Origin: Palleronia pontilimi
Lineage (GTDB): Bacteria > Pseudomonadota > Alphaproteobacteria > Rhodobacterales > Rhodobacteraceae
Direction: 5' to 3'
Length of the DNA stretch: 32,665 nt
Assembly (NCBI RefSeq): GCF_016412875.1
Contig: NZ_JAEKPD010000025.1
Span: 1 to 32,665 of the forward strand
In this document: positions 11,368 to 32,665 of the stretch, piece by piece
Position numbering within the stretch: the first letter of the stretch is position 1
How the letters are laid out: each line of letters begins with the position of its first letter
Notes under the pieces: generated by a model
Told to the model about the DNA's origin: nothing
The model's database searches: none
Seen by the model: the letters and a program-made list of their open reading frames with translations, nothing else
Program-made: the position numbers and the translations under genes

Positions 11368-13737
11368 CTACCGGCCCGGCGGCAGGACCGCCTGCCAGCT
11401 GCCCAGCCGCGAGCGGTCGGACATCCGGCCGATCTTTTCCAGTTCGCGCCACAGCCCGCGCACGCAATGGCGCATCGAGAGCGGCGCGCCCTCCTCGGCG
11501 CTGAGCAGGAGCGCGGTGTAGATCGCGTTGCGGATCTCGCCGCCCACGATTTCGAACGGCTCGGCGAGCTGCGGGATATCGATGTCGTTCGCGCGATCCT
11601 CGGGCGGGGGCAGCAGCTTGTCCCAGATCGCGCGCCGCTCGCGCGCCGCGGGCGGCATGAATTCCGCCCGCACCCGGATCCGGCGCAGGAAGGCGTCGTC
11701 GATATTGCCCGCCAGGTTGGTCGCCAGGATCGCCAGGCCGTCGAAATCGTCCAGCCGCTGCAGCAGGTAGTCGATGGTGATGTTGGCATAGCGGTCGTGA
11801 CTGTCGCGCACCTCGGTGCGCTTGCCGAAAAGCGCGTCGGCCTCGTCGAAGAACAGCGCCACCCGCGACCGCTCGGCCTCGTCGAACACCGCCGCCAGCC
11901 GCTTCTCGCTTTCGCCGATGAACTTGTCGACCACCTGCGATAGGTCGATGCGGTAGAGCGCATAGTCCACCTCGGCGGCGATGATCTGGGCGGCCATGGT
12001 CTTGCCGGTCCCCGGCGGCCCGCTGAACAGGCAGGAAAGCCCCGCCCCGGCGCGCAACCCCGCGCCGGGGCCGCCTTCGCCGAACAGCTGCTGGCCGTGG
12101 CGCGCCCAGGCGATGGCCAGATCGAGCTCGGCGCGGGTGCGGTCGGGCAACACGATGTCGACGCGGGTCCAGGGGCAGGGCAGGCGCTCGGCAGCGCCGT
12201 CGAAACGGGTCTGGCGAAGCCGGTCGCAGGCGGCGGACAGGTCGGCGGCCGAGGCTGCCGCGCGGCCCTCGGCCCGGGCCTGCGCCTCGGCGATGCGGCG
12301 GGCGCGGGCGATGCCGCGGGGGCCGAAGTCGAAGCGCTCGGCCAGGCGGCGCAGACCGTCGTCGTCGACGCCCCCGGGCTGGGGTCCGGTCCCGGCGGCC
12401 CACAGGCGCAGCCGCTGCGCCGGGTCGCGCGGCGGCGCGTCCAGCCGCATCAGCGGCCGGTCGCAGGCCATCGCGAGCGCGCCGTAGCGCGCCGGCTCGG
12501 CGATCAGGAAGGCCGGGGCGGGCAGGCCGCCCATCAGGGCGGGCCAGACCGCCTCGGGCACCGCTTCAGGCGCGGTCAGCACCAGCGCGGCCTCTTCGAG
12601 GCAAAGCTCGCGCAGCACCGTGCCGAGCCCCCCGGGCTCGGCCAGCACCGTGCCGGGGACGGCGAGCGCGGCATGGCCCAGCCGCCCGGCCAGCGCCGTG
12701 GCGATGGCGCCGCGGCCGCTGTCCTCGGGGCCGAGCACCGCCACAGCCGGGACCTGCGCCGCCCCGGCGAGCGCGGTCGCGGCGGCCTCGAGCACCGGCC
12801 GCAGGCTCTCGGGAGCCTTCAGGCGCGCGATCGCTTGCGGATCGGCCGGGCTCAGCGGAAAGGTCGGCGCGCGGTCGCCCCCCAGCACCAGCCGCCAGAC
12901 CGCCGGCGGAACCGTGACATCCGCGGTGGCGAGCGGCCCGTCCGGCGCCACCGTGGCCAGCCCGAAGCGCACCAGGCGCCCCTCGGGGCCAAGGCTCGCG
13001 TCCAGCCGCTCGGGCGGCAGGCCGAGCTCGGCGGCAAGACCCGCCATCGGCCGCGGCCGGCCCATGTGGTCGTTGAGCAGCGTCAGCAGCCTTGCCGCGC
13101 GCAGATCGACCTCGACTAGGCTGCCGAGCAGGATCAGGTCGCGCTCGGTCGGGTCGAGCGCGAAGACCGAGACCAACCGCTCGAGCCCCGGCAGCTTCGG
13201 CGCCGGCCCGTCGCCTGCCAGCTGCCGCACCAGGTCGCGCAGCTCGCGCCCCGGGCCGACATCGGGCACCCGATCGCCGCGGTGCGCGAGGATGCGCGCC
13301 GCGATCCTGCCGAGGCAGGCCGACAGCGCATCGCCCGCGCCGGGCGGCGCCGGCGCCTCGACCCGCGGCGGGCCGTGGAACAGGCCGTAGAGCCAGCCGA
13401 GCAGGCCGGGCCTGTCGGGCACGGGGTTGGTTAGCAGCTCGCGGATCCTGTCGGGCGAGGCGTCGTGCAGCACCTGCGGCGCGCGGCCGGGGCGGTGCAC
13501 GGTCACCCGCGCGCCCGAGGGGGTGACCGCGATCAGCCGGTCGGCCTGGCCACGGTTCAGGATCGCCAGCGAGGCACGCTCGGCGCAGACCAGCACCGCG
13601 TCGACGCGACGCTCGGCGCACTGCCCGGCCAGGTCCTCGATCTCGGCATCCGGGATCCCGGCCAGGGTCTCGGCAAGGATCGATCGCAGAATGTTCGGCG
13701 CGTCGCTCAGATCGACGGCGATGCGAAGGCGAGGCAT
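11368..13737 (-). CDS. eCIS AAA+ ATPase (Afp15/Pvc15-like)
   Basis: The 789-residue protein is the AAA+ ATPase that accompanies contractile injection systems and is needed for particle assembly in studied relatives. Its C-terminal AAA domain has Walker A GPPGTGKT (about 572-579), Walker B ALFFDEADALFG (about 626-637), sensor 1 ILATNLAGN and arginine-finger region FLRRIRVRAEF. The N-terminal 500 residues contain a second, degenerate nucleotide-binding fold (VAVLGPEDSGRGAIATAL, with no usual GKT). ATG 13737 (MPRLRIAVDL) is preferred over GTG 13776 because AAAGGA precedes it at suitable spacing. It is transcribed away from the structural operon across a shared control region. The family is clear; a client in this system is inferred. 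Confidence 0.88.
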   Translation of the reverse strand: MPRLRIAVDLSDAPNILRSILAETLAGIPDAEIEDLAGQCAERRVDAVLVCAERASLAILNRGQADRLIAVTPSGARVTVHRPGRAPQVLHDASPDRIRELLTNPVPDRPGLLGWLYGLFHGPPRVEAPAPPGAGDALSACLGRIAARILAHRGDRVPDVGPGRELRDLVRQLAGDGPAPKLPGLERLVSVFALDPTERDLILLGSLVEVDLRAARLLTLLNDHMGRPRPMAGLAAELGLPPERLDASLGPEGRLVRFGLATVAPDGPLATADVTVPPAVWRLVLGGDRAPTFPLSPADPQAIARLKAPESLRPVLEAAATALAGAAQVPAVAVLGPEDSGRGAIATALAGRLGHAALAVPGTVLAEPGGLGTVLRELCLEEAALVLTAPEAVPEAVWPALMGGLPAPAFLIAEPARYGALAMACDRPLMRLDAPPRDPAQRLRLWAAGTGPQPGGVDDDGLRRLAERFDFGPRGIARARRIAEAQARAEGRAAASAADLSAACDRLRQTRFDGAAERLPCPWTRVDIVLPDRTRAELDLAIAWARHGQQLFGEGGPGAGLRAGAGLSCLFSGPPGTGKTMAAQIIAAEVDYALYRIDLSQVVDKFIGESEKRLAAVFDEAERSRVALFFDEADALFGKRTEVRDSHDRYANITIDYLLQRLDDFDGLAILATNLAGNIDDAFLRRIRVRAEFMPPAARERRAIWDKLLPPPEDRANDIDIPQLAEPFEIVGGEIRNAIYTALLLSAEEGAPLSMRHCVRGLWRELEKIGRMSDRSRLGSWQAVLPPGR

Positions 13738-14227
13738 GGGGCGGCCGTCCTTTCCGCGGCCGATACTAAACGGCACGCGACCGCGCGGTGAACCGCGGCG
13801 AGGGCCCAGCGGCGGGCCCAGATGGTCCTGATCCGCGGACCGGCGCCCGCGGGCAGGCGGCGGCTGGACAGCCGCGCGGCGGCGGTGCGGGGCGGGCGCC
13901 GAATCAGATCCGGGGCGTATCGGGAATGTCGTCGTTCACCAATGGCTTGCGGGCCATCCTTCGCGTTTTCCCCGGTTTCGGGATCGGGTCCCGCCAGCTG
14001 CCGGGGATCCAGATCCGCCCGGGCCGGGAAGATCCAGATCCCCGGCGGCGGGCCGCCCGGCCAGGGGCGGGGCCTGCTGCGGAAATACCCAATTCCAACA
14101 GGGGCTTGCGCATACGGGCTGGCCCGGGTGGATCCGAATTGAACCTCTGCCGGCTTTGCCAATCGGCATCGGTCGGCCGCACCATCGGTGCAAAGCCCCT
14201 TCGTTCTCATCGAGGAGCCGCCAGCCC
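13738..14227. promoter_or_regulatory. Divergent control region between the ATPase and the eCIS operon
   Basis: About 550 bases separate the two divergent start codons and no convincing gene lies within. Two perfect inverted repeats stand out: CCGGGGATC (14001-14009) with GATCCCCGG (14037-14045), and GGCTTTGC (14152-14159) with GCAAAGCC (14190-14197). An 11-base direct repeat GATCCAGATCC occurs at 14006-14016 and 14031-14041, nested in the first pair. Either pair could be an operator or an RNA hairpin. The second lies just before the first ribosome-binding site of the operon. I cannot place -35/-10 boxes with confidence. Confidence 0.45.
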
Positions 14228-14296
14228 ATGGCCAACGCCGACCATCCCATGCCCTGCGCGACCCGCGCGCTGCCGGCGGAGTCGGCCGATGGCTAA
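14228..14296 (+). CDS. Possible 22-residue leader peptide
   Basis: ATG 14228 is preceded by GAGGAG at 14212-14217, a better ribosome-binding site than most in the window. The frame encodes MANADHPMPCATRALPAESA plus two residues and ends at TAA 14294-14296, five bases beyond the first base of the DUF4255 start codon (14289). This overlap would couple translation of the two. No family resemblance is seen. It could equally be a chance frame in GC-rich leader sequence. Confidence 0.3.
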   Translation: MANADHPMPCATRALPAESADG

Positions 14297-14900
14297 CTGG
14301 CGGGTGGTGGAGAACACGGGCCGTACGCTGGTCGAGCTGCTGGATCGGCACATCGGCCTGCTCGGCATTCCCAACGTCACCGTCGGCTTGGTCACGCCTG
14401 CCGCCTTCGGCACGCTCGCCGGGACCGCGGATCCGTTCGTGTCGCTGTTCCTCTACCAGATCTCGGACAATCCCGAGCTGCGCAACAGCCCCCAGCAGAT
14501 GCTGCCCGACGGCACCTTTCAGCGCCAGCCGCTGCCGCTGGAGCTGTCCTACCTGGTCACCGCCTGGGGGGTCCGGGCGCAAGCGGACGTCGCCTCGGAC
14601 CTGCTGGCCACGCGCGACGAGGCGCGGCTTCTGGGCGCCGTCATGCAGGCGTTCTACGAGGCGGCCGAGATCGATCGCGGCAGCCTGTTCGAGGATCCGG
14701 CGGTGCCGGTCTGGGCGCCGCATGATGGGCTGCAGCTGATGATGGAGACACTGCCGCTCGAGGGCCATTACCGGATCTGGGACGCCGCCGAGCTGGGCTA
14801 TCGCCTTTCGCTGGTCTACCGCGCCCGTGTCGCGGCGCTCGAGCCGCTGGTCACGCCGCCGGGACCGCCGATCACCGATGCCGCGCTGGAGACGGCGTGA
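14289..14900 (+). CDS. DUF4255 / Pvc16-family protein (tube cap or terminator)
   Basis: The 203-residue product belongs to the DUF4255 (Pvc16/Afp16 N-terminal) family. In Afp and PVC, the member of this family caps the tube and sheath and sets particle length. Family features are ENTGRTLVELLDRHIG, the strand SVTLFLY-like segment FVSLFLYQISDNPELRN, PLPLELSYLVTAWG and the late GYRLSLVYRARVAAL. ATG 14289 is chosen: CGGAG lies 7 bases before it, and sequence further upstream lacks family character. The stop overlaps the next start in TGATG. It opens the plus-strand structural operon. Confidence 0.88.
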   Translation: MANWRVVENTGRTLVELLDRHIGLLGIPNVTVGLVTPAAFGTLAGTADPFVSLFLYQISDNPELRNSPQQMLPDGTFQRQPLPLELSYLVTAWGVRAQADVASDLLATRDEARLLGAVMQAFYEAAEIDRGSLFEDPAVPVWAPHDGLQLMMETLPLEGHYRIWDAAELGYRLSLVYRARVAALEPLVTPPGPPITDAALETA

Positions 14901-15571
14901 TGGCAGGCGACGTGATCCGGCATCAGCTTTCCTTCGCGATCCGCTTCCTGGATCATTTCAGCGGCGCGCCGGTGCCCGAAGAGCTGCCGGTGCGGCTGGC
15001 GGGGTCGTTCCAGCGCCCGGCGGCGCGGCGCGGCTCGGTCTCGCGCCGGCAGGTCGACGGCGCCTACCGGTTCCTGTCGGTGCCCACCGGCACGGCGCAG
15101 GTGCTGTGGCGCGATCCGTTCCGCCGCACCCAGGCCGGCTGGGCACGCTGGGACGGCGAGGATCCCCAGGTGCAGCTGCCGCGCCCCGATCCCACCCTGC
15201 CGGTCGAGATCACGCTCTGGCCCACCGCCGCGGCCACCGCGCCGGCGGGCGCCACCGGGGTCCGGGGAAAGCTGCTGGGCAGCAACGCCGACGGGCTGGC
15301 CGTGCGCATCGCGCGCACCGGCACTCCGTTCGACCGCTTCACCCGCACGGATTCCGCGGGCGAGTTCCTGTTCCTGCCGCCGGGCACGCTCGCACCCGAT
15401 GGCGCCACCGGCCGGGTGCCGCTGGACATCGAGGTCCGCGACGCCGCGGGCGTCCAGCGCGTCGTCACCGGCGGCGCCTTCCTGCCGGCCGCGGCCGGCC
15501 CGGCCTTCGCGGGCCCAAGTTTCACCGTCGCGCCACGGACCGTGCCGCGCGTTCTGTTCCAACTGGCGTGA
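14900..15571 (+). CDS. Beta-rich accessory protein of the eCIS operon, function unknown
   Basis: The 223-residue protein has no signal peptide or membrane segment. It looks like two beta-sandwich units. The first is RFLDHFSGAPVPEELPVRLA to about residue 90. The second begins near GVRGKLLGSNADGLAVRIA and includes FTRTDSAGEFLFLPPG, resembling carboxypeptidase-regulatory or transthyretin-like repeats. Its ATG overlaps the DUF4255 stop, so the two proteins are probably made in step. Position between cap and sheath genes suggests a structural or cap-associated role, but this is inference. An adjacent GTG at 14897 would add only one residue. Confidence 0.7.
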   Translation: MAGDVIRHQLSFAIRFLDHFSGAPVPEELPVRLAGSFQRPAARRGSVSRRQVDGAYRFLSVPTGTAQVLWRDPFRRTQAGWARWDGEDPQVQLPRPDPTLPVEITLWPTAAATAPAGATGVRGKLLGSNADGLAVRIARTGTPFDRFTRTDSAGEFLFLPPGTLAPDGATGRVPLDIEVRDAAGVQRVVTGGAFLPAAAGPAFAGPSFTVAPRTVPRVLFQLA

Positions 15572-15598
15572 GCCGCCGGTAGCCAAGGAGACCAAGCG

Positions 15599-18439
15599 AT
15601 GCCCGAATACCTGCGCCCCGGCGTCTACATTCAGGAGACCTCGTTCCGCGGCAAGCCGATCCAGGGCGTGAGCACCTCGACCGCCGGTTTCGTCGGTGCC
15701 ACCCGCACCGGACCCGAGGGCAAGGCGACCTTCGTGTCCAGCTACGCGCATTTCAAGCGGCTGTTCGGCGACCCGATCGCGCCGGTGCAGAACCTCGGCG
15801 ACTACATGGGCTATGCGGTCAAGGCGTTCTTCGAAAACGGCGGCTCGCGCGCCTATGTCGTCCGGGCGCTGTCCGGTGCGGCCGTGGCCTCGGCCGTGGC
15901 GATCGAGCAGGGCACGGTGCTGAAGCTCGCCCCCGGCGTGACGGTGCGCGGCCCGACCACCAGCCTGCGGCTGAACGCGCTGCGCGGCGTGACCGTGGGC
16001 ACGGTGCTGCACGTCTTCACCCGGCCCGACGCCAACAGTCCCTTCGCCGAGACCCGTCAGCTGAACGTGCAGGGCTACGATCCGCAGCGCGACAGCATCA
16101 CCGTCGCGGCGGGCGAGATCCCGGCGGGCGTCAGCCTCAGCCCGTCGAACACCGTGTTCCTGATCGGTGGCATGGCCCCCGCCAACGCCAATCCGCTGGG
16201 CGGCGGCGCCAGCTTCACCGCGCGCCATCGCGGCGTGGACGGCGACCGCATCTCGGTCGAGATCCGGCCGCGCGACCGGGCGCCGGTCGCGCTGACCTCG
16301 GTCTCTGCGGTGCGCCAGGACCCGCCGCTGACGCTCGATGCGGGACAGTTCCCGCTCGCGGCGGGCGCCGTCGCGCTGCAGTTCGACTCGGCCTCGCTGC
16401 GGCGGCTGCGTGTCGGCGATAGCATCGGCGTCGGCACCTCGTCGGGGCTGGTGATCCAGGCCATCGCGGATGGCGCCGCGGATCTCGGCGTGGTCGGCGG
16501 CGGCAACGGCAACGACCACAGCGCGGGCGCCACGGTCACGCTGGTCTCGCGCGGGGGGGCGGCGCTGCCGACGCCCCTGCAGCTGGCCGACGCCGCGGCC
16601 GGGGCGGGGCTGGGGATCGACATGTCCGGCGCCAACAGCTTCCCCGGCGTCGCGCTCGACCACGACACGGCGATGCTGTTGCGGCCCGCTGACGTGATCC
16701 GGCTGGATACCGGCGGCGTGACCACCGACCTCACCGTGACCGCCGCGCAGGTGGCCGAGGAAATCGCGCCGGGCGCCCATGTCACCCTGGCCGCGCCGGG
16801 GCTGGCGGCGGCCGAGGCGGGCCCGGTGGACCCGGAGCTCGAGGCCGCGTCGCCCGGCGCCGCGGCGTTGCCGGCGGCGGCGCAGATGAGCCGTCTCTAC
16901 CTCGGCGACGTATCGGGCTTCGTCGCCCCCAACCGCGCCGGCGCGCTCGAGGCGGTGGCGATCAGCGACGGCGGCAATATCGACACCGGCCATATCCGCC
17001 TGGTTGACCCCGCCACCAGCGCGCTCTGGATCGCGACCGCGGCGGGCGAATACCCCACCAACGTGGCCGCCGACGACTATGCCACCGTCGAGGTGCTGCA
17101 GGTCGCCGCCGATGGTGACGCCAGCGTGCGCGTCGCCTCGACCGCCGCCTTCTACACCGGCGCCAAGGTCGAGCTGGACACCGGCACCGCCAAGATCGAG
17201 CGCATCGTGGCCAGCATCGACGGCGCCGCCCGCCGGGTGACCTTCACCGCCGGGCTGCCGCTGGGCGCGGGCAACACCATCGATCTGGACCCGGATCCGA
17301 ACAACCGCCGGGTCTACCTGCGCACCTGCGAGATCGACGTGGCGATCCTGGAGAACGGCGTCGTGTCGGAGATCTTCGAGGGCCTGACCTGGAACTCCGA
17401 TCCGGCCACCGACGCGGGGATGCGCTATTACGTGGACCGCATCAACGACGACGAGGTCGGCTCGGCGCTGGTGCGCGTCGCCGCCGCGCCCGCGCCGGGG
17501 CTGGGCTTTGCCGAGGCGCCTGTGAACGCCAACGGCCAGCCGAAACCGCTGACCGGCGGCGACAACGGCCCGGCGCTCACCGAGCTCGACCTGATCGGCG
17601 CCGACAACGGCCCCGGCCAGCGCACCGGCATCCAGGCCCTGGGCGAACGCGACGACATCTCGATGGTCGCGGTGCCCGGCGTGGTGGCCGAGACGGTGCA
17701 GGGCGCGCTGATCACCCATTGCGAGAAGCTGCTCTACCGCATCGCGGTGCTGGACGCGCCGCTGACCGCGCTCGACGTCACCGCGCTGCAGTCCCATCGC
17801 AACAACTACGACAGCAAGTACGCGGCCTATTACGCGCCTTGGGTGCGGGGTCTGAACCCGGTCAACGGCAGGATCGAGAGCTTCCCGCCCTCGGCCTACG
17901 CGATGGGGATCTACGCCCGCACCGACAACACCGTGGGCGTGCACAAGGCGCCGGCGAACGAGGTGGTGCGCAACATCACCGACGTGGTGCTGCCGTTCAC
18001 CGGGTCTGAACAGGACGCGCTGAACCCGGTCGGGATCAACCTGATCCGCGACCTGGCGCCGCGCGGCATCCGGATGTGGGGCGCGCGCACCATCTCGTCC
18101 GACCAGGAATGGAAATACGTCAACGTCCGGCGGCTGTTCATCTTCCTCGAGCACTCGATCGACAAGGGCACCCAATGGGTGGTGTTCGAGCCGAATTCCG
18201 AGGCGCTGTGGGCCAAGGTGGTCGAGACCATCACCTCGTTCATGACCGGGGTGTGGAAGAGCGGCGCGCTGATGGGCACGACGCCCGAGGAGGGCTTCTT
18301 CGTGACCTGCGACCGCACCACGATGACCCAGGACGACATCGATAACGGGCGGCTCGTCTGCGAGATCGGCGTCGCGCCCGTCTACCCGGCCGAATTCGTG
18401 ATCTTCAAGATCGGCCAGTTCACCGCCTCCAGCAGCTAA
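15599..18439 (+). CDS. Contractile sheath protein, oversized (Afp2/Pvc2-like)
   Basis: The sheath surrounds the inner tube and contracts to drive it into a target. Conserved sheath parts are the N-terminus MPEYLRPGVYIQETSF, GFVGATRTGPEG, FENGGSRAYVVR and FTARHRGVDGDRISVEI (about 206-222). VVSEIFEGLTW and MRYYVDRIN follow at about 585-616. The C-terminal interlocking domain has APRGIRMWGARTISSD (about 820), FLEHSIDKGTQWVVFEPN and APVYPAEFVIFKIGQF. At 946 residues it is about twice a typical sheath. The extra mass is a beta-rich stretch at about 230-580, probably surface-exposed. AAGGAG stands 8 bases before ATG 15599. It appears intact. Confidence 0.92.
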   Translation: MPEYLRPGVYIQETSFRGKPIQGVSTSTAGFVGATRTGPEGKATFVSSYAHFKRLFGDPIAPVQNLGDYMGYAVKAFFENGGSRAYVVRALSGAAVASAVAIEQGTVLKLAPGVTVRGPTTSLRLNALRGVTVGTVLHVFTRPDANSPFAETRQLNVQGYDPQRDSITVAAGEIPAGVSLSPSNTVFLIGGMAPANANPLGGGASFTARHRGVDGDRISVEIRPRDRAPVALTSVSAVRQDPPLTLDAGQFPLAAGAVALQFDSASLRRLRVGDSIGVGTSSGLVIQAIADGAADLGVVGGGNGNDHSAGATVTLVSRGGAALPTPLQLADAAAGAGLGIDMSGANSFPGVALDHDTAMLLRPADVIRLDTGGVTTDLTVTAAQVAEEIAPGAHVTLAAPGLAAAEAGPVDPELEAASPGAAALPAAAQMSRLYLGDVSGFVAPNRAGALEAVAISDGGNIDTGHIRLVDPATSALWIATAAGEYPTNVAADDYATVEVLQVAADGDASVRVASTAAFYTGAKVELDTGTAKIERIVASIDGAARRVTFTAGLPLGAGNTIDLDPDPNNRRVYLRTCEIDVAILENGVVSEIFEGLTWNSDPATDAGMRYYVDRINDDEVGSALVRVAAAPAPGLGFAEAPVNANGQPKPLTGGDNGPALTELDLIGADNGPGQRTGIQALGERDDISMVAVPGVVAETVQGALITHCEKLLYRIAVLDAPLTALDVTALQSHRNNYDSKYAAYYAPWVRGLNPVNGRIESFPPSAYAMGIYARTDNTVGVHKAPANEVVRNITDVVLPFTGSEQDALNPVGINLIRDLAPRGIRMWGARTISSDQEWKYVNVRRLFIFLEHSIDKGTQWVVFEPNSEALWAKVVETITSFMTGVWKSGALMGTTPEEGFFVTCDRTTMTQDDIDNGRLVCEIGVAPVYPAEFVIFKIGQFTASSS

Positions 18440-18468
18440 CAGGGCCGACCCACGAGGAGAGTTGATCC

Positions 18469-18927
18469 ATGGCAACCGAACGCGCCAACAAGAACCCCTA
18501 TTCGAACTTCAACTTCATCGTCGAGTTCGACGGGATGGAAGAACTGGCCTTTGCCGAGGTCACCGGGCTCGACAGCGAAACCACGCCGATCGAGTACCGC
18601 GAGGGGGCGGACGCGACCAGCGCCATGCGCCAGCTGCCCGGAGTCGAGAAATACCCGCCGGTCCAGCTCAAGCGCGGCATCACCGGTAGCCTGAAGCTGT
18701 GGGAATGGCGCAAGGAGGTGCGCGACGGCGGCAGCACCTTCCCGCCGACCAAGACCGTCACCGTCAAGCTTGTGGACGAGAAGCACGACCGCAACGCGCC
18801 GGCGATGACCTGGACGCTGACCAATGCCTGGCCGACCAAGCTGACCGGCCCGTCGCTCACCGCCAAGGGCAACGACTATGCCGTGGAACAGCTCGACCTG
18901 GTCCACGAGCGGCTGGACGTGAGCTGA
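18469..18927 (+). CDS. Inner tube protein (Afp1/Pvc1-like, gp19 fold)
   Basis: The 152-residue protein is of the T4 gp19-like tail tube family, whose hexamer rings stack to form the tube carrying cargo. Typical features are NKNPYSNFNFIVEFDGMEE, FAEVTGLDSETTPIEYREG, KYPPVQLKRGITGSLKLWEW and a C-terminal strand region ending AVEQLDLVHERLDV. A GAGGAG ribosome-binding site precedes the ATG. Placement directly after the long sheath is standard for eCIS operons. Confidence 0.93.
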   Translation: MATERANKNPYSNFNFIVEFDGMEELAFAEVTGLDSETTPIEYREGADATSAMRQLPGVEKYPPVQLKRGITGSLKLWEWRKEVRDGGSTFPPTKTVTVKLVDEKHDRNAPAMTWTLTNAWPTKLTGPSLTAKGNDYAVEQLDLVHERLDVS

Positions 18928-18934
18928 GGTCGGC

Positions 18935-20985: not shown

Positions 20986-20995
20986 GGGGGCCGCG

Positions 20996-21878: not shown

Positions 21879-21881
21879 GCC

Positions 21882-23153: not shown

Positions 23154-23157
23154 GCCC

Positions 23158-23787: not shown

Positions 23788-23797
23788 GGGGAAGGGA

Positions 23798-24700: not shown

Positions 24701-25113
24701 TGGGCAAGCCGATCACCACCGCGTCGAGCGGCACCTGCGTCGCTTTTCCCAACGTCTGCAAGACGCCGGTGCCGACACCGGCCGGGCCGCAGGACGTGCC
24801 GATCCCGTACCCCTCGATCGGGCAGCTCTCCTCGGCCGAGAAGCAGAGCGGCGATCCCACCGTCTTTGCCGGCGGCGACCCGGTGGTGACCACCGATTTC
24901 GAGATCGCGGACACCACGGGCGATGCCGCCGGAACCTCGGGCGGGGTCAAGTCCGGGGGGCAGGGCGGGCCGGTGACCTTCCCGTCCGGATCCGGCTCGG
25001 TCAACGCCCAGACCTATCCGGTGGTGCGCATGTTCGACCAGACCGAGCAGAACGACGGCAACTGCACCGGGACCTGCCTTGGCGGGATTCCGACGATCAG
25101 GGTGGGGGGCTAG
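24700..25113 (+). CDS. PAAR-like tip protein (DUF4150)
   Basis: The 137-residue protein has the DUF4150/PAAR-like layout: CVAFPNVCKTPVPTPAGP, VPIPYPSIGQLS, a GGDPVVTTDF turn, SGGVKSGGQGG and a C-terminal cysteine pair (NCTGTCLGG). PAAR-type proteins form the pointed, metal-holding tip of contractile spikes. It takes the place of Afp10/Pvc10. ATG 24700 overlaps the DUF2169 stop. Confidence 0.82.
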   Translation: MGKPITTASSGTCVAFPNVCKTPVPTPAGPQDVPIPYPSIGQLSSAEKQSGDPTVFAGGDPVVTTDFEIADTTGDAAGTSGGVKSGGQGGPVTFPSGSGSVNAQTYPVVRMFDQTEQNDGNCTGTCLGGIPTIRVGG

Positions 25114-25116
25114 GCC

Positions 25117-25536
25117 ATGGCGAGCACCGATCCGCGCCTGACGGGCAAGCGCCGGCACCTGGGCAAGGGCTGGGCGTTCCCGGTGCGGCCGGTGGGCGGC
25201 AGGCTGGTCTATGCCGAGTACGAACAGGACATCGAGCAGGCGGTCGAGATCATCCTGCGCACCGACCCCGGCGAACGGGTGATGGAGCCCGGCTTCGGCG
25301 CCGGGCTGCGCAGCTTCCTGTTCGCCGGCAACTCCTCGGTGACCCACCGCCGGGTCGAGCAGGCGGTCACCCGCGCGCTGCTGATGCAGGAGCCCCGGAT
25401 CGAGGTGAAGAAGGTCGCCGCCCGCGCCGCAGCGGGCGAACCGAACCTGATGGAGATCGAGGTCGACTACGTCGTGCGCCGCTCCAACGCCTTCTACAAC
25501 CGCGTCTATCCCTTCTATCTGAACGAGGCGGACTGA
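25117..25536 (+). CDS. gp25-like baseplate wedge protein (Afp9/Pvc9-like)
   Basis: The 139-residue protein is of the gp25/GpW family, which initiates sheath assembly at the baseplate. The signature DPGERVMEPGFGAGLRSFLF is clear, with AEYEQDIEQAVEIILRT before it and NAFYNRVYPFYL at the end. It sits three bases after the PAAR-like stop and three before the J-like start. Length and sequence look normal. Confidence 0.92.
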   Translation: MASTDPRLTGKRRHLGKGWAFPVRPVGGRLVYAEYEQDIEQAVEIILRTDPGERVMEPGFGAGLRSFLFAGNSSVTHRRVEQAVTRALLMQEPRIEVKKVAARAAAGEPNLMEIEVDYVVRRSNAFYNRVYPFYLNEAD

Positions 25537-25539
25537 GCC

Positions 25540-27819
25540 ATGCCGCTGACCCCTCCACCGCTCGACGATCTCGACTACGCCACGGTCGAGACGATGCTGC
25601 GCGAACGCATCCCGCTGGTCGCCCCCGACTGGACCGACCACAACGACAGCGATCCGGGCATCGCGCTGATCCAGCTTTTCGCGCATCTCTCGGAGCAGCT
25701 CGGCTATCGGCTCAACCGGGTGCCGGAAAAAACCTATCTCGAGTTCCTCAAGCTCGTCGGCGTGCGCCTCGCCCCGGCCAAGGCCGCGCGCACCCGCATC
25801 GCCTTCACCCTGTCGAAGCCCGCCAATGCCGAGGCGGTGCTGGTGCCGGCCCACTCCCGGATCACCGCGAAGGCGGGCGGCGACGGCCCGCCGCCGGTCT
25901 TCGAGACCGACCGCGCGCTCGACGTGCTGCCGGCGCAGATCGCGGCGCTGGTGACGGTCCGCGACGGCCTGTTCGACATTAACGGCAGCGGCGATGCCGG
26001 CCCGACCGCCGCCGACGAGGTGGCGGCGGACTACATCGCCACGCGTTATGCGCTGGCCTGGGACGGCAAGACGCCCAAGCTGAAGGATATGGCGACCAAG
26101 CCGGTGCGGCTGTTCATGGCACCCGAGGAGGCCGAGCACCGCGTGCTCTGTATCGGGCTCGCCTTCAGCCAGTTGCGCTCGGCCGGGTTCCTGGGCGCCC
26201 GTGCCTCGCTGCACCTGCAGATCGACCAGGACGAGGAACCGACGCCCGAGGCCCAGGTCGAGGCCGGCGCCACCGCGCTGTCGGTCGTCAACGCCTTCGC
26301 CGAAGGCCCGCCGATGGTCGACTACGACTACTACCGCCCGCCGCGCCCGGGCGAGGCCTCGGGCAGCTGGCAGCCGCTGACGGTGCTGAGCGACGGGACC
26401 GACGGCTGGACCCAGTCGGGCACCGTCCGCTTCGACGTGCCCGAGCGCATCGGCCCGGCGCCGCTGACCGAGTGGCAGGAGGTCGAGACCGATCTGGCGC
26501 ACCCCTTCCTCGAGGCGGTCAAGACGCCGGTCCGGGACACGCCGGCCGAGGCGCCGATCAGCGGCTGGATCCGGGTCCGGTTTCCGGTCCCGCCGATGAT
26601 CGCGGTCCGGTCGCTCAGCTTCAACACCGTCGAGGCGGCGAACCTGGAAACCATCCGCGCCGAGCGCCTCGGCCGCGGCACCGGGCTGCCGGGGCAGGCG
26701 CTGAGCTTCACCAAGCCCAACGTCGACGCCGCCTCGCTGCGGCTGATCAGCCGGGACCGGACCCGCGCCGACGAGATTCTGAGCTGGGCCGAGGTGCCCG
26801 ATTTCGACGCCGCCGGTCCCGAGGACCGGGTGTTCGTGCTGGACGCAGAGGCGGGCGTGGCGATCTTCGGCGACGGGCTGCGCGGCCGCCCGCCCACCAG
26901 CACCGAGCTGATGATCGCCGAGATCTACCGCCACGGCGGCGGCACCAAGGGCGATGTCGACACCGCCGCGGTGGCCCAGCCGGCGGGGCTGCCCAATGCG
27001 ATCGAGGCCGCCTTCAACATCGTGCCTGCCCGCGGCGGCGCCGAGGCCGAAAGCCTCGAGACCGCCAAGACCCGCGCCCCGGCCGCCTATCGCCGCCGCG
27101 GCCGCGCGGTGACCGCGGCGGATTTCCGCGAGGCCGCCGAAGAGGCGCCCGGCGTGCGCGTCGCCCGCGCCCATGTGGTGCCGCTGCGCCGGCCGCATCC
27201 GGGCGGCCACCAGATCGGCGGGCTCGACGCGCCCGGGCTCGACATGGCGACCGAGGCGCCGGGCGCGCTTTCGGTCATCGTGGTACCGCAGGCCCCCGGC
27301 GACTACCCGATGCCCACCAACGGCGAGCTGTCGGCGGTTGCCGCGCATCTCGATACCCTGCGCCTGCTGACGACCGAGGTGCACGTGACCACGCCGCAAT
27401 ACGTGCGGCTCTTCAACATGCAGGTCGCGGTGCGGGCGCAGCCGGGATATGCCGAGACGCTGCTGCGCGAGACGATCATGGACCGCCTGCGCACGCGCTG
27501 CCACGTGCTGACGGGTGGCACGGACGGCAAGGGCTACGGCTTCGGCGCCGCCCTGCACCACGCCGATCTGGTGGCCGAGACCATGCGCGTGCCAGGGGTG
27601 GCGCGGGTCGAGGGGCTCGATTGCCTGGTCGACGGCCGCACCCCCGACGACGCCGAGCGCACGCTGGAATGGCGGATCGAGCGGCGGCTGGTGAAGCGGC
27701 TGACGAATTGCCCGGCGGCGGGCGTAGCGACCGATGTCGACCGCATCGTGCTGCTGCCCGACGAGGTGCCGTTCGTCGATCCGGTCTCGCTGCTGGTGTC
27801 CGTGGTGGGCGCGCCATGA
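25540..27819 (+). CDS. Baseplate J-like protein (Afp11/Pvc11-like)
   Basis: The 759-residue protein forms part of the baseplate wedge, corresponding to phage P2 gpJ and T4 gp6. The N-terminus has the typical DWTDHNDSDPGIALIQLFAH, LSEQLGYRLNRVPEKTYLEF motif. The centre shows the strand-rich GVAIFGDGLRGRPPTS and RRRGRAVTAADFREAAEEAP seen in J proteins. The C-terminal part has HHADLVAETMRVPGVARVEG. The stop overlaps the next start in ATGA (27816-27819). A long antisense open frame also crosses this region but is explained by codon bias. Confidence 0.92.
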   Translation: MPLTPPPLDDLDYATVETMLRERIPLVAPDWTDHNDSDPGIALIQLFAHLSEQLGYRLNRVPEKTYLEFLKLVGVRLAPAKAARTRIAFTLSKPANAEAVLVPAHSRITAKAGGDGPPPVFETDRALDVLPAQIAALVTVRDGLFDINGSGDAGPTAADEVAADYIATRYALAWDGKTPKLKDMATKPVRLFMAPEEAEHRVLCIGLAFSQLRSAGFLGARASLHLQIDQDEEPTPEAQVEAGATALSVVNAFAEGPPMVDYDYYRPPRPGEASGSWQPLTVLSDGTDGWTQSGTVRFDVPERIGPAPLTEWQEVETDLAHPFLEAVKTPVRDTPAEAPISGWIRVRFPVPPMIAVRSLSFNTVEAANLETIRAERLGRGTGLPGQALSFTKPNVDAASLRLISRDRTRADEILSWAEVPDFDAAGPEDRVFVLDAEAGVAIFGDGLRGRPPTSTELMIAEIYRHGGGTKGDVDTAAVAQPAGLPNAIEAAFNIVPARGGAEAESLETAKTRAPAAYRRRGRAVTAADFREAAEEAPGVRVARAHVVPLRRPHPGGHQIGGLDAPGLDMATEAPGALSVIVVPQAPGDYPMPTNGELSAVAAHLDTLRLLTTEVHVTTPQYVRLFNMQVAVRAQPGYAETLLRETIMDRLRTRCHVLTGGTDGKGYGFGAALHHADLVAETMRVPGVARVEGLDCLVDGRTPDDAERTLEWRIERRLVKRLTNCPAAGVATDVDRIVLLPDEVPFVDPVSLLVSVVGAP

Positions 27820-30515
27820 GCGGCTCGGTCCTCCTTGACCGGCTGCGGCCGGGGCGCGACGCCAACGACACGTCCTGGGTGATCCTGAGGGGCGCGCGCG
27901 GCTGGGCGCAGGCGCTGGGGCAGGGGGTCGTCTGGAACGCCGCCCGCGACGGGCTGGAGCTGGCGCCGCGCGCGCGGCCCGAGCTGGCCGAGGACTGGCT
28001 GCCGCTCGCGCCGGTGGTCGGTCCCGACGGCACGCTCTATCGCTGCGATCCCGAGCGCGACCTGCTGCTGGCGAAGCGCGCCTGCGATCCCGATTTCGCG
28101 CCGGTGCCCGGGCTCGGCGGCCCCGGCTTCGCCACCGGCCGGTTCCGCATGCCCGCCGGGGTGGCGGTGGACCGGCGCGGCCGGGTCTACGTGGCCGATG
28201 CCGGCAATGCGCGGGTGCAGGTGGTCGACCCGAAGGCCGCGGCGGTGGTCGCGGTGCTGCAGGACGGGCTGTCGCTGCCGGTGCACGTGGCGCTGGGGCG
28301 CTGCGGCACGATCTACGTGGCCGACGCGGGCAACGGCGCGATCCATGTCTTCGGCGCCGATTTCACGCCCCGCGCCGCGTTGCCGCTGGCCACCCGCGAC
28401 CCGGTCACGGACGCGCTCTGGACGGCACCGCCCGCGCCCCGGCCGCTGGCCGTCGCGGTGCTGCCGGGCGGCACGCTGGTCGCCTTCGATCCCGCCCGCG
28501 CCTGGCTGTGGCACATGACCTGCACGGGCGCGGCGCTGCCGGCGCAGCCCTGGCCCGATCCCTGGCCCGAGGGCTGGTCGCCCGCTGCGCGCCGCTTCGC
28601 GTCCGAGGCCGAGGTGGTGCTGGGCCCGATCGACGGCGGCAGCCACGACCTGGCCTGGCACCGGGTGCTGGTCGAGGCGGACCTGCCCGCGGGCAGCGCG
28701 CTCGAGGTCCAGAGCTTCGCCGCCAACCGGGTCGATCCGCCCCCCGCGGCGCTGTGGGCGCCCGCGCGGCCGGTGCCGATGCCGGCTGCCGCCGCCGACC
28801 GGCCGGGGGCCGCCTATGACCGGCTGGTGCTGGCCGATCAGGGCGGCTGGGCGCTCTGGCGCCCCGGCCGCCTGACCCGCGCCGCGCCCACGCTGGCGGA
28901 GCTGCAGGGCACCGGCCCGGACGGCACCGACGAGCTGACGCTGCCCGCCGGGGCCGCGGCCCGCGTCGTGCCCGGCGACGTGCTGCGCCTGACCACGCCC
29001 GCGGGCGGCAGCGCCGAAGTCACCGTCACGGGCGCCGGCGCCGGCGCCTGCAGCCTGGCCTTGAGCGGGCCCGAAGCCGCCTTCCTCGCCCCGCTCGCGC
29101 TGCACCTGATCCGGCGCGACGGCGACGCGCTGCCCTTCGGGCCCTTCGATCTGGGCTTCCTGGTCGATCCGGGCCAGGCGGCGCTGCCCGGCACCGCCCG
29201 CGACGGCCGGCCCGAGCCCGCGGCGCTGCCGCACGCGCTCGCCGCCTTCCTGCGCCCGGGTGACATCCTGTCCTTCGGTGGAGCAGAGCCCGCGCGCGCC
29301 GAGGTGCTGGAACTGCCGTCCGTGCCGGTGACTTTCAAGCTGGCCGCCGATGTCCCCGGCGACTTCCGCGACTGCACGGTGGCGCTGTCCGCCCCGCAGG
29401 GCCGGCTGGTGGTGCGCGAGCCGCTGCCCGATCTCGGCCCCCGGCCCGCGGGGCAGGAGGTCACCGTGATCCAGGACGCGCTATTCGAGCGCCACGCGCT
29501 GGCCTGGCAGGGCGCGGACACGCTGTGGCTGGCCGCGCCGCTGGCCGGCGCCATCACCCAGGCGGGCTGTACCAATGCCCGGTTCCCGGAACCCGAGGCG
29601 ACCGATCGCGGCCGCTACCTGTGGCTACGGCTGCGCCTTGTCGGGCGCGGGCTGCCGGCCCCCGACGGGGTCGGGCCGCCGGTGCTGGCCGACGCCACGC
29701 CGCTGATCCGGTCGCTGCGGGTCACCGGGCCGCGGCCGAGCCTGCTGCACTGGCTGCCGCAGGTCTTCGCCTATCGCGACCCGATGCAGGAGCCGCCGGG
29801 CGGCAATTTCCTGGAACGCTTCCTGGCGCTGTTCGAGGGCCAGTTCACCCGGATCGAAGAGGCGCTCGACAGCGTCCAGCGGCTGATGAACCCGGCGGCG
29901 GCGGATCCCGATTGGCTCGATTACGTCGCCTCCTGGCTCGATCTGGCCTTCGACCCCTCCTGGCCCGTGGCGCGGCGCCGGCAGCTGGTGATCGAGGGCG
30001 CCGATCTGCAGGCCGGGCGCGGAACGCCGGCGGCGCTGCGCCGCTATCTCGAGATCTACACCGGCGCCCCGGTCGGCATCGCCGAGGACTTCCGCCGCCG
30101 TCCGCCGCCGCCGATGCAGCTGGGCGCGCGCGGCGCCCTCGGCGTGGCGCCGATCGGGCCGGGCGTCGACGACCCGGAACGCTTCGCACACCGCTTCACC
30201 GTCACGGTGCAGCTGCCCGCCGGCATCGACCGGCGCACTGCGACCACGGCGGTGCGCGAGATCATCGACCGGATGAAGCCGGCGCAGACGCTCTACACGC
30301 TCGACGCGGGGCGCGCCCGGGCGCGGCGGATCGGCATCGACATGTCGATCGGCGCCATCGTGATCCCGGGGCCGACCCGCGCCGCCCCCTGTGCCTGCGA
30401 CCCCGAGGCCGCGCCTGGGCCCCGCCCGCACCCCGGCCACGTGCCCGGCGGCTTCCGGCTGGGCGGGCGGCTGGGGCACGGCCCGGTGTCCGAGACCCGA
30501 TTGCAAGGAGGGTGA
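27816..30515 (+). CDS. NHL-repeat / phage tail protein I fusion (Afp12-position baseplate protein)
   Basis: The 899-residue protein joins two modules. Residues about 105-190 hold two clear NHL-type propeller blades (MPAGVAVDRRGRVYVADAGN, then LPVHVALGRCGTIYVADAGN), and further degenerate blades probably follow to about 350. From about 640 it matches phage tail protein I (LLHWLPQVFAYRD, FLERFLALFEGQFTRIEEAL, DWLDYVASWLDLAFDPSW, RRYLEIYTGAPVGI). Protein I-type subunits connect wedge and fibres. The C-terminus is proline/glycine-rich with CACDP. ATG 27816 overlaps the J stop; open frame upstream of it lies antiphase within J. The propeller may bind a fibre or a target, by inference. Confidence 0.85.
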   Translation: MSGSVLLDRLRPGRDANDTSWVILRGARGWAQALGQGVVWNAARDGLELAPRARPELAEDWLPLAPVVGPDGTLYRCDPERDLLLAKRACDPDFAPVPGLGGPGFATGRFRMPAGVAVDRRGRVYVADAGNARVQVVDPKAAAVVAVLQDGLSLPVHVALGRCGTIYVADAGNGAIHVFGADFTPRAALPLATRDPVTDALWTAPPAPRPLAVAVLPGGTLVAFDPARAWLWHMTCTGAALPAQPWPDPWPEGWSPAARRFASEAEVVLGPIDGGSHDLAWHRVLVEADLPAGSALEVQSFAANRVDPPPAALWAPARPVPMPAAAADRPGAAYDRLVLADQGGWALWRPGRLTRAAPTLAELQGTGPDGTDELTLPAGAAARVVPGDVLRLTTPAGGSAEVTVTGAGAGACSLALSGPEAAFLAPLALHLIRRDGDALPFGPFDLGFLVDPGQAALPGTARDGRPEPAALPHALAAFLRPGDILSFGGAEPARAEVLELPSVPVTFKLAADVPGDFRDCTVALSAPQGRLVVREPLPDLGPRPAGQEVTVIQDALFERHALAWQGADTLWLAAPLAGAITQAGCTNARFPEPEATDRGRYLWLRLRLVGRGLPAPDGVGPPVLADATPLIRSLRVTGPRPSLLHWLPQVFAYRDPMQEPPGGNFLERFLALFEGQFTRIEEALDSVQRLMNPAAADPDWLDYVASWLDLAFDPSWPVARRRQLVIEGADLQAGRGTPAALRRYLEIYTGAPVGIAEDFRRRPPPPMQLGARGALGVAPIGPGVDDPERFAHRFTVTVQLPAGIDRRTATTAVREIIDRMKPAQTLYTLDAGRARARRIGIDMSIGAIVIPGPTRAAPCACDPEAAPGPRPHPGHVPGGFRLGGRLGHGPVSETRLQGG

Positions 30516-30517
30516 CC

Positions 30518-31849
30518 ATGTCGAAATGGCGAAGCCTGAACCAGTTGCGCGCCTGCGAGGACGCCGCCTGCGGTCTGCCCGCCGGGTTCTTCCGCCTGCG
30601 GTATTTCCACGGCAAGGAGATGCGGCTGGCCGACTATGTCGACGAGCAGCGCTACCACGCCGGCAAGATGCGGTTTCACAACGAAAAGCTGCACGGCGCG
30701 GGGATCCTGTGCGGGCTGAAACTGTCGGTGCTGCAGCCCGAGGGCACGGCGCTGCGGGTGGCGAAGGGGGCCGCGCTTGACGATTGCGGGCGCGAGATCG
30801 TGGTGGGCTTCGACCAGTGCGTCGACGTCGCCGCCTGGTTCGCGCGGCAGGCCTACGAGATGCAGGGGCAGGACGACAATCCCTGCGCGCCCGACGCCGA
30901 GAACCGGGTCAAGCTGTGCGTGCTCATCCGCTATGCCGAATGCGTCGGCGGCCCCGAGCCGGCGCCGCCCGCGCCTTGCCCGCCGCCCGATCCGTGCGCC
31001 TGCGGCGGCGGCGGCGCCTGCGGTTGCGCCACGCCGACGCGCGCGGCCGATCCCTGCGCCGAGGGCGCCGAGTTCGGCCGGGTCGCCGAGGAGTTTGAGC
31101 TGCGCCTGATGTTCGCCGACGAGGCGCGGCGGGTGTCGCACCACGAGCTGTTTCCGGACGCCGCCGAGATCGACGCCGCGCTGGCCGGCGCGGCGCCGAC
31201 CGTGGGTCTGCTGTCGGCGCTGGCGCCGGCGATCCGGGCGCGCTGTCCGGCGGCGGATGACGGCTGGCTGCTGCTGGGCTGTTTCCACGTCCGGGTCGAG
31301 GCCAACGACCCCGCCCGGGTGGTGGCGATCGAGGATGTCGACCACGGCGCCGCCGCGCAGGTGCTGCTTTCGACCGAGGTGATCCAGTACCTGCTGGGCG
31401 GGCTGATCGACGAGGTCGGCCCGGGCATGGCGGGGCCGCGGGTCGGCGGCATCGGCATGCGGCTGCTGCCCGACGGGCGCTACCAGATCGCGCTTGGCCT
31501 CACCGCGCAGATCGAGCCCACCTCGCTGGAGCCCGAGGCAAGCTTCCAGATCCGCGCGATGAGCGCGACCGGCTGGCAGGTGCCGGCGGCCAACGCGATG
31601 GTCGCCACCTACGGCACCGCCATTGCCGGTGATCATCACCTCGAGGGGCCGACGATCTATCTCGCCTTCAACAACGCCAACGGCTTTCTCGCCGAGGGCG
31701 GGCGCTACGAGCTCTTCGCGACCGAGGAAGTCGCCCCGATCGTCGACGACAAGCTGCGCCGACTGCGGCCGCGGCACCTGTCCTGGCGCTTCGGCCTGAC
31801 CACCGATCCGGGCACCGGCGCGCTGCAGATGCAGCCGCTGGGCGGCTGA
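30518..31849 (+). CDS. Cysteine-rich eCIS accessory protein, function unknown
   Basis: The 443-residue protein starts with a motif seen in proteins encoded beside contractile baseplates: FFRLRYFHGKEMRLADYV, EQRYHAGKMRFHNEKLHGAG and ILCGLKLSV. A proline/glycine linker at about 142-190 packs seven cysteines, including CPPPDPC, CACGGGG and CGC, suggestive of metal binding or disulphides. The rest is beta-rich with no known motif that I can name. There are no membrane segments. A strong AAGGAGG precedes the ATG, two bases after the previous stop. It probably belongs to the baseplate or fibre attachment zone; this rests on context alone. Confidence 0.75.
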   Translation: MSKWRSLNQLRACEDAACGLPAGFFRLRYFHGKEMRLADYVDEQRYHAGKMRFHNEKLHGAGILCGLKLSVLQPEGTALRVAKGAALDDCGREIVVGFDQCVDVAAWFARQAYEMQGQDDNPCAPDAENRVKLCVLIRYAECVGGPEPAPPAPCPPPDPCACGGGGACGCATPTRAADPCAEGAEFGRVAEEFELRLMFADEARRVSHHELFPDAAEIDAALAGAAPTVGLLSALAPAIRARCPAADDGWLLLGCFHVRVEANDPARVVAIEDVDHGAAAQVLLSTEVIQYLLGGLIDEVGPGMAGPRVGGIGMRLLPDGRYQIALGLTAQIEPTSLEPEASFQIRAMSATGWQVPAANAMVATYGTAIAGDHHLEGPTIYLAFNNANGFLAEGGRYELFATEEVAPIVDDKLRRLRPRHLSWRFGLTTDPGTGALQMQPLGG

Positions 31850-31869
31850 CCGCGGGAAAGGGGGACGCC

Positions 31870-32665
31870 ATGGCAGAGAACACCGAACGCGAGGAGGCCG
31901 AAAAGCGGCTGAACGCGCGGATGAAGTTCCTGGCGCAGGGGATCGAGATGCTGCGCGCCGGTGGCCAGGCGGCCGGCAAGGTGTCGCTGGCCGCCCTGTG
32001 CGGCAGCATCCCGCTGATGGAGGCCTATTCCGGCGTCCGGGCGGCGGAGTTCGAGCCGATCGGGGACGAGACGCCGGACGAAGAGCCGGCCTTCCTCGGC
32101 CTCGACCGCGGCCAGGCGGCGGTGGTCAGGGCGGCGGGCGCCAAGGTGCTGCTGGAGGCGATCCAGATCGCCTCGATCACCGATCCGATCATCAAGGACG
32201 CGCCGCGCTTCACGCCGTTCAACGACAAGGGCGAGCGGCAGGCGCCGCATCTGATGCACCTGCTGGCCTTCGGCGCGATGGTCCAGCGCCTGTGGGGCGA
32301 CGACTGGCTGAAACCGCCCGCGGCCGAGCCGCCGCAAATCCTCTACGACCCCACGCTGACCGTGGCCTACGTCGCCACGGCGCCCGGCGAATACGCCGTG
32401 GCCTCGGCCCCGCTCGCGCCGCGAGAGATAAGGAGATACGCGATGAGACGCCGCGCCATGAACCAGCCGCCGCTTGCGATGCTGGCCACCTACTCGGATC
32501 CCACCTCGATCGTCGCCGCCCCCGCCACCGGCCAGCCGATGATGATGACGAGCCAGCCGATGGCGATGTCCGGCCAGCCGATGGCGATGTCCGGCCAGCC
32601 GATGGCGATGTCCGGCCAGCCGATGGCGCGCATGCGCTCGGGCGCGGGCATGACCCACATGGCGC
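31870..32665 (+). CDS. Unrecognised eCIS-operon protein with Met-rich heptad repeats (partial, runs off the right edge)
   Basis: The frame is open from ATG 31870 (MAENTEREEAEKRLNARMKF) to the window end, 265 codons without a stop. The first 150 residues are mostly helical and compact (LAALCGSIPLMEAYSGVR, IQIASITDPIIKDAPRF). A basic patch IRRYAMRRRAMNQPP follows at about 189-203, then a low-complexity tail of MAMSGQP repeats. AAAGGGGGA precedes the start, 20 bases after the previous stop. I do not recognise the family. Position at the end of the baseplate genes could suit a fibre, chaperone or cargo-related role, but nothing seen decides this. Confidence 0.7.
   Translation, partial: MAENTEREEAEKRLNARMKFLAQGIEMLRAGGQAAGKVSLAALCGSIPLMEAYSGVRAAEFEPIGDETPDEEPAFLGLDRGQAAVVRAAGAKVLLEAIQIASITDPIIKDAPRFTPFNDKGERQAPHLMHLLAFGAMVQRLWGDDWLKPPAAEPPQILYDPTLTVAYVATAPGEYAVASAPLAPREIRRYAMRRRAMNQPPLAMLATYSDPTSIVAAPATGQPMMMTSQPMAMSGQPMAMSGQPMAMSGQPMARMRSGAGMTHMA
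32560..32622 (+). repeat. Three perfect 21-bp tandem repeats
   Basis: The unit ATGGCGATGTCCGGCCAGCC plus G occurs at 32560-32580, 32581-32601 and 32602-32622 without mismatch. Degenerate partial copies flank it (GGCCAGCCGATGATGATGAC at 32530-32549 upstream, ATGGCGCGCATG downstream). In frame each unit encodes Met-Ala-Met-Ser-Gly-Gln-Pro. Since 21 is a multiple of three, slippage would change protein length without a frameshift. Confidence 0.95.

Follow-up and report, generated by a model that had tools for sequence, protein, structure and literature searches.

A contractile injection system locus of Palleronia pontilimi split across two contigs, with an annexin-repeat giant as its probable main cargo

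The DNA stretch analysed here (the window) is the entire contig C18 of Palleronia pontilimi, 32665 bases of a 3.72-Mb genome that is assembled in 64 contigs and given as 98.98% complete. As a whole, the locus that it carries is best explained as an extracellular contractile injection system (eCIS), a headless contractile tail, with a 2491-residue annexin-repeat protein (the giant) as its main cargo, and we put the probability of this reading at about 0.72. The giant and the remainder of the system lie on a second contig, C19 (15346 bases), and the reconstruction restores the other half of a system split in two by the assembly. eCISs are natural protein injectors whose cargo rules remain poorly known, and the eight related cargo genes described below, seven of them directly after the ATPase loader, allow us to ask whether annexin repeats are a delivery module.

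The eCIS core genes and their continuation on a second contig

The window contains sheath and tube genes (Pfam), genes for gp25, J, protein 12, spike and PAAR (Pfam, NCBIfam), and genes for a Pvc16_N/DUF4255 cap and a CDC48-type AAA+ protein. A first-pass annotation, made from the letters of the window, had named the core parts of an eCIS, and every one of them was recovered by Pfam, PHROG, NCBIfam or position in annotated relatives. The plus-strand run begins with the cap or tail terminator (Afp16-like; 14289..14900; Pfam Pvc16_N 7.2e-30) and an accessory, carboxypeptidase-regulatory-like protein (14897..15571; Pfam 0.0002, below cut-off), the Roseomonas gene at the same place being annotated alike. 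Sheath 1 is 946 residues long, has a long central insert and matches sheaths in the PDB (15599..18439; Pfam Phage_sheath_1 1.6e-18, Phage_sheath_1C 1e-16). It is followed by inner tube 1 (18469..18927; Pfam Phage_T4_gp19 8.2e-40), sheath 2 (18935..20296; Pfam Phage_sheath_1 1.8e-13) and the CIS5/CIS1-like inner tube 2 (20296..20985; Pfam gp19 4.8e-25; NCBIfam CIS5 1e-13, below cut-off). The Afp7-like CIS tube-initiator has a LysM-like C-terminus (20996..21649; Pfam CIS_tube 6.3e-25), and its Roseomonas counterpart is annotated as LysM. The small Pvc6-like protein of 70 residues (21666..21878) has no Pfam match and was assigned by its position and by its start motif in comparison with a relative. 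Its gene lies 3' of the CIS_tube/LysM gene here, and a small gene lies 5' of the latter in the genome G105, in Cereibacter and in Roseomonas.

The hub (VgrG N-terminal/phage late control D-like; 21882..23153) has no Pfam match, and its identity comes from PHROG 52 (2.4e-12) and from its place in annotated relatives, including the Roseomonas counterpart. The spike, with a baseplate V OB fold and repeats (23158..23787; Pfam Phage_base_V 7.3e-13; NCBIfam VgrG_rel 4.9e-18, below cut-off), precedes a DUF2169-like protein (23798..24700; Pfam DUF2169 0.00025, below cut-off), the PAAR-like tip (24700..25113; Pfam Tox-PAAR-like 8.8e-26), baseplate gp25 (25117..25536; Pfam GPW_gp25 2.7e-22) and baseplate J (25540..27819; Pfam Baseplate_J 3.8e-12). 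Baseplate protein 12, or tail protein I, carries N-terminal NHL repeats (27816..30515; Pfam Tail_P2_I 5.9e-13 to 1.1e-12, NHL 3.5e-12; NCBIfam CIS12 5.6e-27, below cut-off), and the fibre-type protein 13 has a conserved N-terminal part and homologues in relatives (30518..31849; NCBIfam CIS13 8.5e-15, below cut-off). The NCBIfam matches to CIS5, CIS12 and CIS13 are all far under their equivalog cut-offs. The carboxypeptidase-regulatory-like, DUF2169-like and CIS13-like genes had received no emphasis in the first-pass annotation. Some open reading frame (ORF) starts in the window had been called too early mechanically and were reset by translation, namely those of the cap (14289), tube 2 (20296), CIS_tube/LysM (20996), spike (23158), PAAR (24700), protein 12 (27816) and protein 13 (30518) genes.

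The Afp15/Pvc15-like AAA+ ATPase, with winged-helix and AAA domains, is encoded at 11368..13776 (Pfam AAA 1.2e-27, WHD 6.3e-8) and starts at GTG 13776 or ATG 13737. From 14289 onwards, neighbouring genes among the 17 on the plus strand overlap or are spaced by no more than 29 bases, as the first-pass annotation had stated for the whole set. The statement does not extend to the divergent ATPase gene, which is outside the operon because it stands by itself on the minus strand, with 512 bases between it and the cap gene. All 17 complete eCIS frames in the window are open and those of known families retain their domains, which is consistent with a complete core and a functional operon.

C18 stops in the middle of the operon, and the 17th plus-strand gene runs past the contig end. 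The final 37 bases of C18 (32629-32665) are identical to C19:1-37, and the frame of the cut gene goes on across the overlap to C19:498. Together with the agreement with relatives, the overlap and the open frame indicate that C18 and C19 are probably adjacent. The gene so joined (31870..32665, plus strand, then C19:1-498) encodes an operon protein with a Met/Gln/Ser/Gly tandem repeat. This repeat is encoded by 4.8 copies of a 21-base tandem repeat at 32528-32628, with the contig break just 3' of it, and a Gly/Cys/His-rich stretch follows on C19. C19 then encodes a second fibre-type protein (C19:504-2915), whose matches in relatives are the fibre genes also matched by protein 13, a tape-measure-like protein (C19:2869-4515; CIS_TMP 11.3 bits against a cut-off of 27.8) whose position agrees with relatives, and the giant (C19:4512-11987). 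Downstream lie a HEAT/FGE-like protein of 462 residues (C19:11984-13372; HEAT-like below cut-off, FGE-sulfatase just above cut-off) and a LuxR-type regulator (C19:13452-14093). The core set described from the window is there, but the system extends beyond it, and the tape-measure-like, second fibre-type and probable toxin genes that were to be sought to the right of the window are all on C19.

The annexin giant and its relatives

The giant carries annexin repeats (Pfam 2.3e-25; phmmer 3.1e-37 to annexin VI) and two hydrophobic stretches, at residues 1377-1423 and 1441-1459. Its maximum 19-residue hydropathy is 2.34, compared with 1.71 or less in the rest of the 23 eCIS-linked proteins checked, and it is the only one with a clear transmembrane stretch. 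Its position and architecture make it the probable main cargo. Four giants were aligned (A1) and scanned against a species-genome collection, which gave 54 pattern matches and seven loci encoding a relative. Six of these loci encode full giants (open frames, 2336-2391 residues) in Rhizobium cauense, a Rhizobiales bacterium, Alteraurantiacibacter aquimixticola, a Rhodobacter metagenome-assembled genome (MAG), Roseovarius spongiae and an uncultured Tateyamaria. The seventh (L072, titled Opitutaceae MAG) was dropped as a probable assembly chimera, with a giant-like match of 45 residues at the end of a 3.5-kb contig; the stretch before the match resembles an acetolactate synthase gene by eye. The six and Roseomonas make up the seven relatives, and with Palleronia there are eight giants. 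By NCBI taxonomy the relatives belong to four alphaproteobacterial orders, Hyphomicrobiales (R. cauense), Sphingomonadales, Rhodobacterales (Roseovarius) and Rhodospirillales (Roseomonas); Tateyamaria and Rhodobacter we take to be Rhodobacterales. In all seven relatives the eCIS AAA gene is followed directly by the giant, whose frame opens between 111 bases upstream and 46 bases downstream of the point where the AAA match ends, and sheath genes are present in 4/4 giant-carrier genomes that had not already been scanned.

Six of the eight giants were scanned whole with Pfam (all except those of L066 and L071). The annexin matches in the relatives are 5.5e-14, 7.5e-9, 8.7e-12, 7.2e-17 and, in one case, 0.0012 (below cut-off), and none of the six matches eCIS_core/DUF4157 at E 0.1 (to E 1 for the Palleronia giant). 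With a core model of one relative, 46 of the 50 Foldseek matches listed name annexin. The type II calcium site of annexins consists of a GxGT motif and a following acidic residue. GxGT is present in the second repeat of all eight giants and in the fourth repeat of seven of them (Palleronia has TVGT), and the spacing from GxGT to the acidic residue differs among the giants owing to inserts. Calcium-dependent membrane binding by the annexin repeats is predicted from the repeats and these sites. Mean pairwise identity of the eight giants per 100-residue block (Palleronia numbering) is 0.26-0.38 up to residue 800, 0.35-0.52 at 801-1900 and 0.16-0.20 at 1901-2300; beyond residue 2300 too few pairs are aligned for comparison.

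At the family level, sheath 1 has matches in 35/248 genomes at E 0.001 and none in the single same-genus genome, and 35/248 is an upper bound for eCISs, the weakest matches possibly being phage sheaths. A similar gene order is found in several loci of the family. The search of the 248 family genomes with the giant alignment gave four matches, namely two full giants (Palleronia and G126) and two short weak matches (G226 and G065) that were not counted. The annexin family PF00191 at E 0.001 has matches in 1/248 family, 3/385 class and 3/398 phylum genomes, with Palleronia in each set and alone above the cut-off. The idea of annexin as a rare marker was rejected; PF00191 misses G126 despite its full giant. 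Weak annexin matches in G422 and G835 are not accompanied by any eCIS-protein or giant match in the stretches retrieved (L064 and L065).

Variable tips, a shared pre-tip module and the downstream gene

The constant body and the differing C-terminal tips across the eight species are a polymorphic-toxin architecture, and the tip is the predicted active part. In the giants of Roseomonas, Alteraurantiacibacter and Tateyamaria, HINT-like stretches, whose matches to PT-HINT or Hint_2 (E 5.8e-6 to 0.14) are all under the cut-off, precede a GIY-YIG-looking end. This end has Pfam support only for Tateyamaria (0.015, below cut-off) and was recognized by eye in the other two. The giants of Rhodobacter, Roseovarius and the Rhizobiales bacterium end alike, in a stretch that contains an 'LWDSKY' motif, of which the R. 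cauense tip shows an 'IIDDKS' variant (by eye). The motif suggests that the 'LWDSKY' tip is nuclease-like. Foldseek gave no match at E <=0.001 for these tips (model pLDDT 63.5); the weak rows include several nucleases of the PD-(D/E)xK type. The only match of the Palleronia tip is to Ntox4 (0.0014, below cut-off).

A pre-tip module (residues ~1739-1860; C19:9633-10121, L071:12917-13363 and L057:8001-8291) occurs both in annexin giants and in an eCIS_core (DUF4157) protein of Streptomyces, part of which it resembles with E 7e-11 for the Tateyamaria module and 4e-9 for the Palleronia module. A Bosea vestrisii plasmid gene with the annotation DUF4781 also matches the module, weakly (E 0.001). The protein 3' of the giant shares a HEAT-like segment (below cut-off) in 6/8 loci regardless of the tip, and the three GIY-YIG-type loci also have an N-terminal part of it in common. 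No such downstream gene is found in Rhodobacter and Roseovarius (L069 and L070) among the up to five ORFs picked. From this distribution of segments, the downstream protein may combine an adaptor with immunity specific to the tip.

Phylogeny and comparison with known systems

In the sheath tree (23 rows), a weakly supported branch (79/79) has Palleronia and the seven giant carriers together on one side. In the ATPase tree (19 rows), Palleronia lies apart from the giant carriers and its ATPase groups in the best tree with those of G071 and G048, but a single clade is not rejected (p-AU 0.23). The displaced Palleronia ATPase may have another history, or may have been replaced from another eCIS. 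The idea that the ATPase phylogeny tracks the cargo rather than the sheath is unsupported, as AAA identities do not separate the groups.

The locus on the plasmid p1318-4 of Roseomonas marmotae (NZ_CP061095.1) has the same gene order from the cap to the fibre-type genes, an AAA+ protein, an annexin giant of 2315 residues and a downstream protein that shares a segment with that of Palleronia. It differs in that its AAA+ gene is in the operon directly 5' of the giant, a response regulator lies upstream, the small gene is 5' of the LysM gene, and the tip is HINT-like and GIY-YIG-looking. The plasmid pORIO4 of Cereibacter azotoformans (NZ_CP089970.1), also of the Rhodobacterales, carries two sheaths, two tubes, a split hub and spike, PAAR and a collagen-like fibre gene. 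The same gene order on this plasmid bears out the earlier description of the genome as of Rhodobacterales type. Unlike Palleronia, pORIO4 has no giant homologue in the retrieved stretch, which ends soon after the AAA+ gene. Afp and PVC share the core parts and the AAA+ protein with Palleronia, but they have three sheaths (Afp2-4 and Pvc2-4 are among the PDB matches) and their sheath similarity is lower. Hub and spike are fused in one protein in Afp and PVC. Pvc15 reportedly links effectors to the particle.

The layout of annexin repeats, anchor and toxin is not new in itself: eCIS toxins with annexin, and proteins that combine annexin, a membrane anchor and a toxin, were published in 2012, 2014 and 2021. 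Zhang 2012 (PMC3482391) describes several PVC-SS toxins in which one annexin domain precedes a toxin domain, and suggests a membrane-breaching role. The toxins of Haliangium and Microscilla resemble the giant in having annexin 5' of a C-terminal toxin domain in an eCIS cargo, but as described there they combine a single annexin domain with PVC-metallopeptidase (eCIS_core), whereas the Palleronia-type giants contain several repeats, and none of the six scanned whole matches eCIS_core. The available passages of Kodavali 2014 describe multi-annexin bacterial proteins, for example Burkholderiales JOSHI_001, with weak four-repeat units in some. These proteins resemble the giant in layout, with three or more annexin domains close to a membrane anchor and a toxin domain, colicin D, at the C-terminus; the same passages name no link to an injection system and no alphaproteobacterium. 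Annexin is among the predicted eCIS effector domains of Geller 2021 (PMC8213781). Among the literature matches listed (titles and abstract openings, with most subscription papers outside the scope), none describes an alphaproteobacterial annexin-cargo eCIS set. The cargo set is a well-resolved example of a known idea.

Alternative explanations

Several observations weigh against a free particle that carries the giant as cargo, and we set them here beside the explanations that they favour. The nearest solved sheaths by sequence are those of the contractile injection systems that the literature assigns to Streptomyces coelicolor (8bky 2.7e-101, 8bl4 1.7e-98) and Halogeometricum borinquense (9ezm 3.4e-104), far ahead of Afp3 (4.6e-48). 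These systems are reported to act in the cytoplasm or from the membrane and not as free particles (PMC11566945, PMC10066040). The term 'extracellular' is not guaranteed for the Palleronia system, because the systems with the closest sheaths are reported not to act freely. The machine could be real but fire from inside, either anchored in the membrane as in the haloarchaeal mode, which is compared to type VI secretion, or in the producer cytoplasm as in Streptomyces. We consider this unlikely, though worth keeping in view. The two Streptomyces clusters are said to have neither a conventional fibre nor a typical tape measure, whereas the Palleronia locus encodes two fibre-type proteins and a tape-measure-like protein, and the 23 eCIS-linked proteins include no clear transmembrane stretch other than that of the giant. 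The locus could also be decaying and no longer make particles. Unlike in the seven giant-carrying relatives, the AAA+ gene is inverted at the left end, where a broken conjugative element and an interrupted IS91-type transposase adjoin it. The open frames and retained domains described above argue against decay, as does the variable placement of AAA+ in the family's other eCISs, and we hold little expectation that this is the case.

That the giant is encoded with eCIS genes in 8/8 loci and has a conserved middle would also fit a structural or surface-tethering part of the particle. Its variable C-termini, the HINT-like stretches before the tip in 3/8 giants and the separate tape-measure-like gene speak for cargo instead, and a structural role appears improbable. 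Tail genes are common to phages and would fit a defective prophage or an R-type tailocin, but a Pvc16_N cap, a CDC48-type AAA+ protein, two sheaths, CIS_tube and PAAR stand against this. Pfam gave no match to capsid, portal, terminase or TssJLM among the 27 window ORFs (at E 0.01) and the five C19 ORFs (at E 1); no genome-wide search was made. With no head or packaging gene matched beside the tail genes in the scanned proteins, a prophage or tailocin was rejected and is highly improbable, and a type VI secretion system was rejected as its TssJLM membrane complex had no match there. On both points the first-pass annotation, which had set the locus apart from phages and from type VI secretion, is upheld. 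The eCIS with the annexin giant as main cargo remains our preferred explanation.

A possible mode of action

By homology of the parts, the sheath, tube, hub-spike-PAAR complex, gp25/J/12 baseplate, cap and tape-measure-like protein would build the particle. By analogy with Afp and PVC, the AAA+ protein would load the cargo, the fibre-type proteins would dock the particle on its target, and contraction would then drive the tube in. The long Pro/Ala-rich, helical N-terminal half of the giant may thread the tube lumen. The annexin repeats could then bind target membranes in a calcium-dependent manner, as their GxGT sites suggest, the hydrophobic hairpin could insert into the membrane, to judge from its hydropathy, and the C-terminal tip would act.

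As a tentative extension, which we think somewhat less probable than not, the alphaproteobacterial eCISs may use a cargo platform of their own, with annexin repeats and a hydrophobic hairpin in place of eCIS_core as the constant delivery part. The particle would bring the giant, calcium and acidic lipids would dock it, the hairpin would insert, and a species-specific nuclease-like tip would cross the membrane or be freed by HINT cleavage; the pre-tip module may be a common joint for tip exchange.

The neighbouring conjugative element and the tape-measure search

Left of the ATPase gene, the plus strand carries a truncated ParB-like gene and the trb genes trbE, trbJ, K, L, F, G and I (288..9211), with 77-79% DNA identity to conjugation operons (best 12 of 183 plasmid records). 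Compared with an intact operon, TrbE lacks ~199 N-terminal residues, the interval from the ParB-like remnant to trbE is without traG, trbB, trbC and trbD, and the frame 3' of trbI stops early (9324-9326). As judged from the sequence, the conjugative element is broken, in line with its earlier description as dead. An IS91-family transposase gene on the plus strand ends at an in-frame stop (9855..10613; Pfam Y2_Tnp 3.1e-46, Zn_Tnp_IS91 5.1e-29). Between these insertion sequence remnants and the ATPase gene, an open stretch at 10996-11233 resembles the end of a truncated gene. The end of a minus-strand frame at 2-766 seems to resemble the C-terminal part of a serine recombinase.

With PF19268, a first search of the Palleronia genome gave no match, and the controls were equally silent. 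Absence of a tape measure was rejected when PF19268 at a looser limit pointed to C19 (E 0.078) and the 37-base overlap then showed the continuation of the operon. At the looser limit, only G035 of ten genomes was above the cut-off, and 4/14 control genomes matched below it. PF19268 is a poor tape-measure marker here, because G105, with a gene in that place, is unmatched and only G035 exceeds the cut-off. In G035 (C1:2600015-2604613), the strong CIS_TMP match lies within an open frame of 1557 residues, seemingly long for a tape measure.

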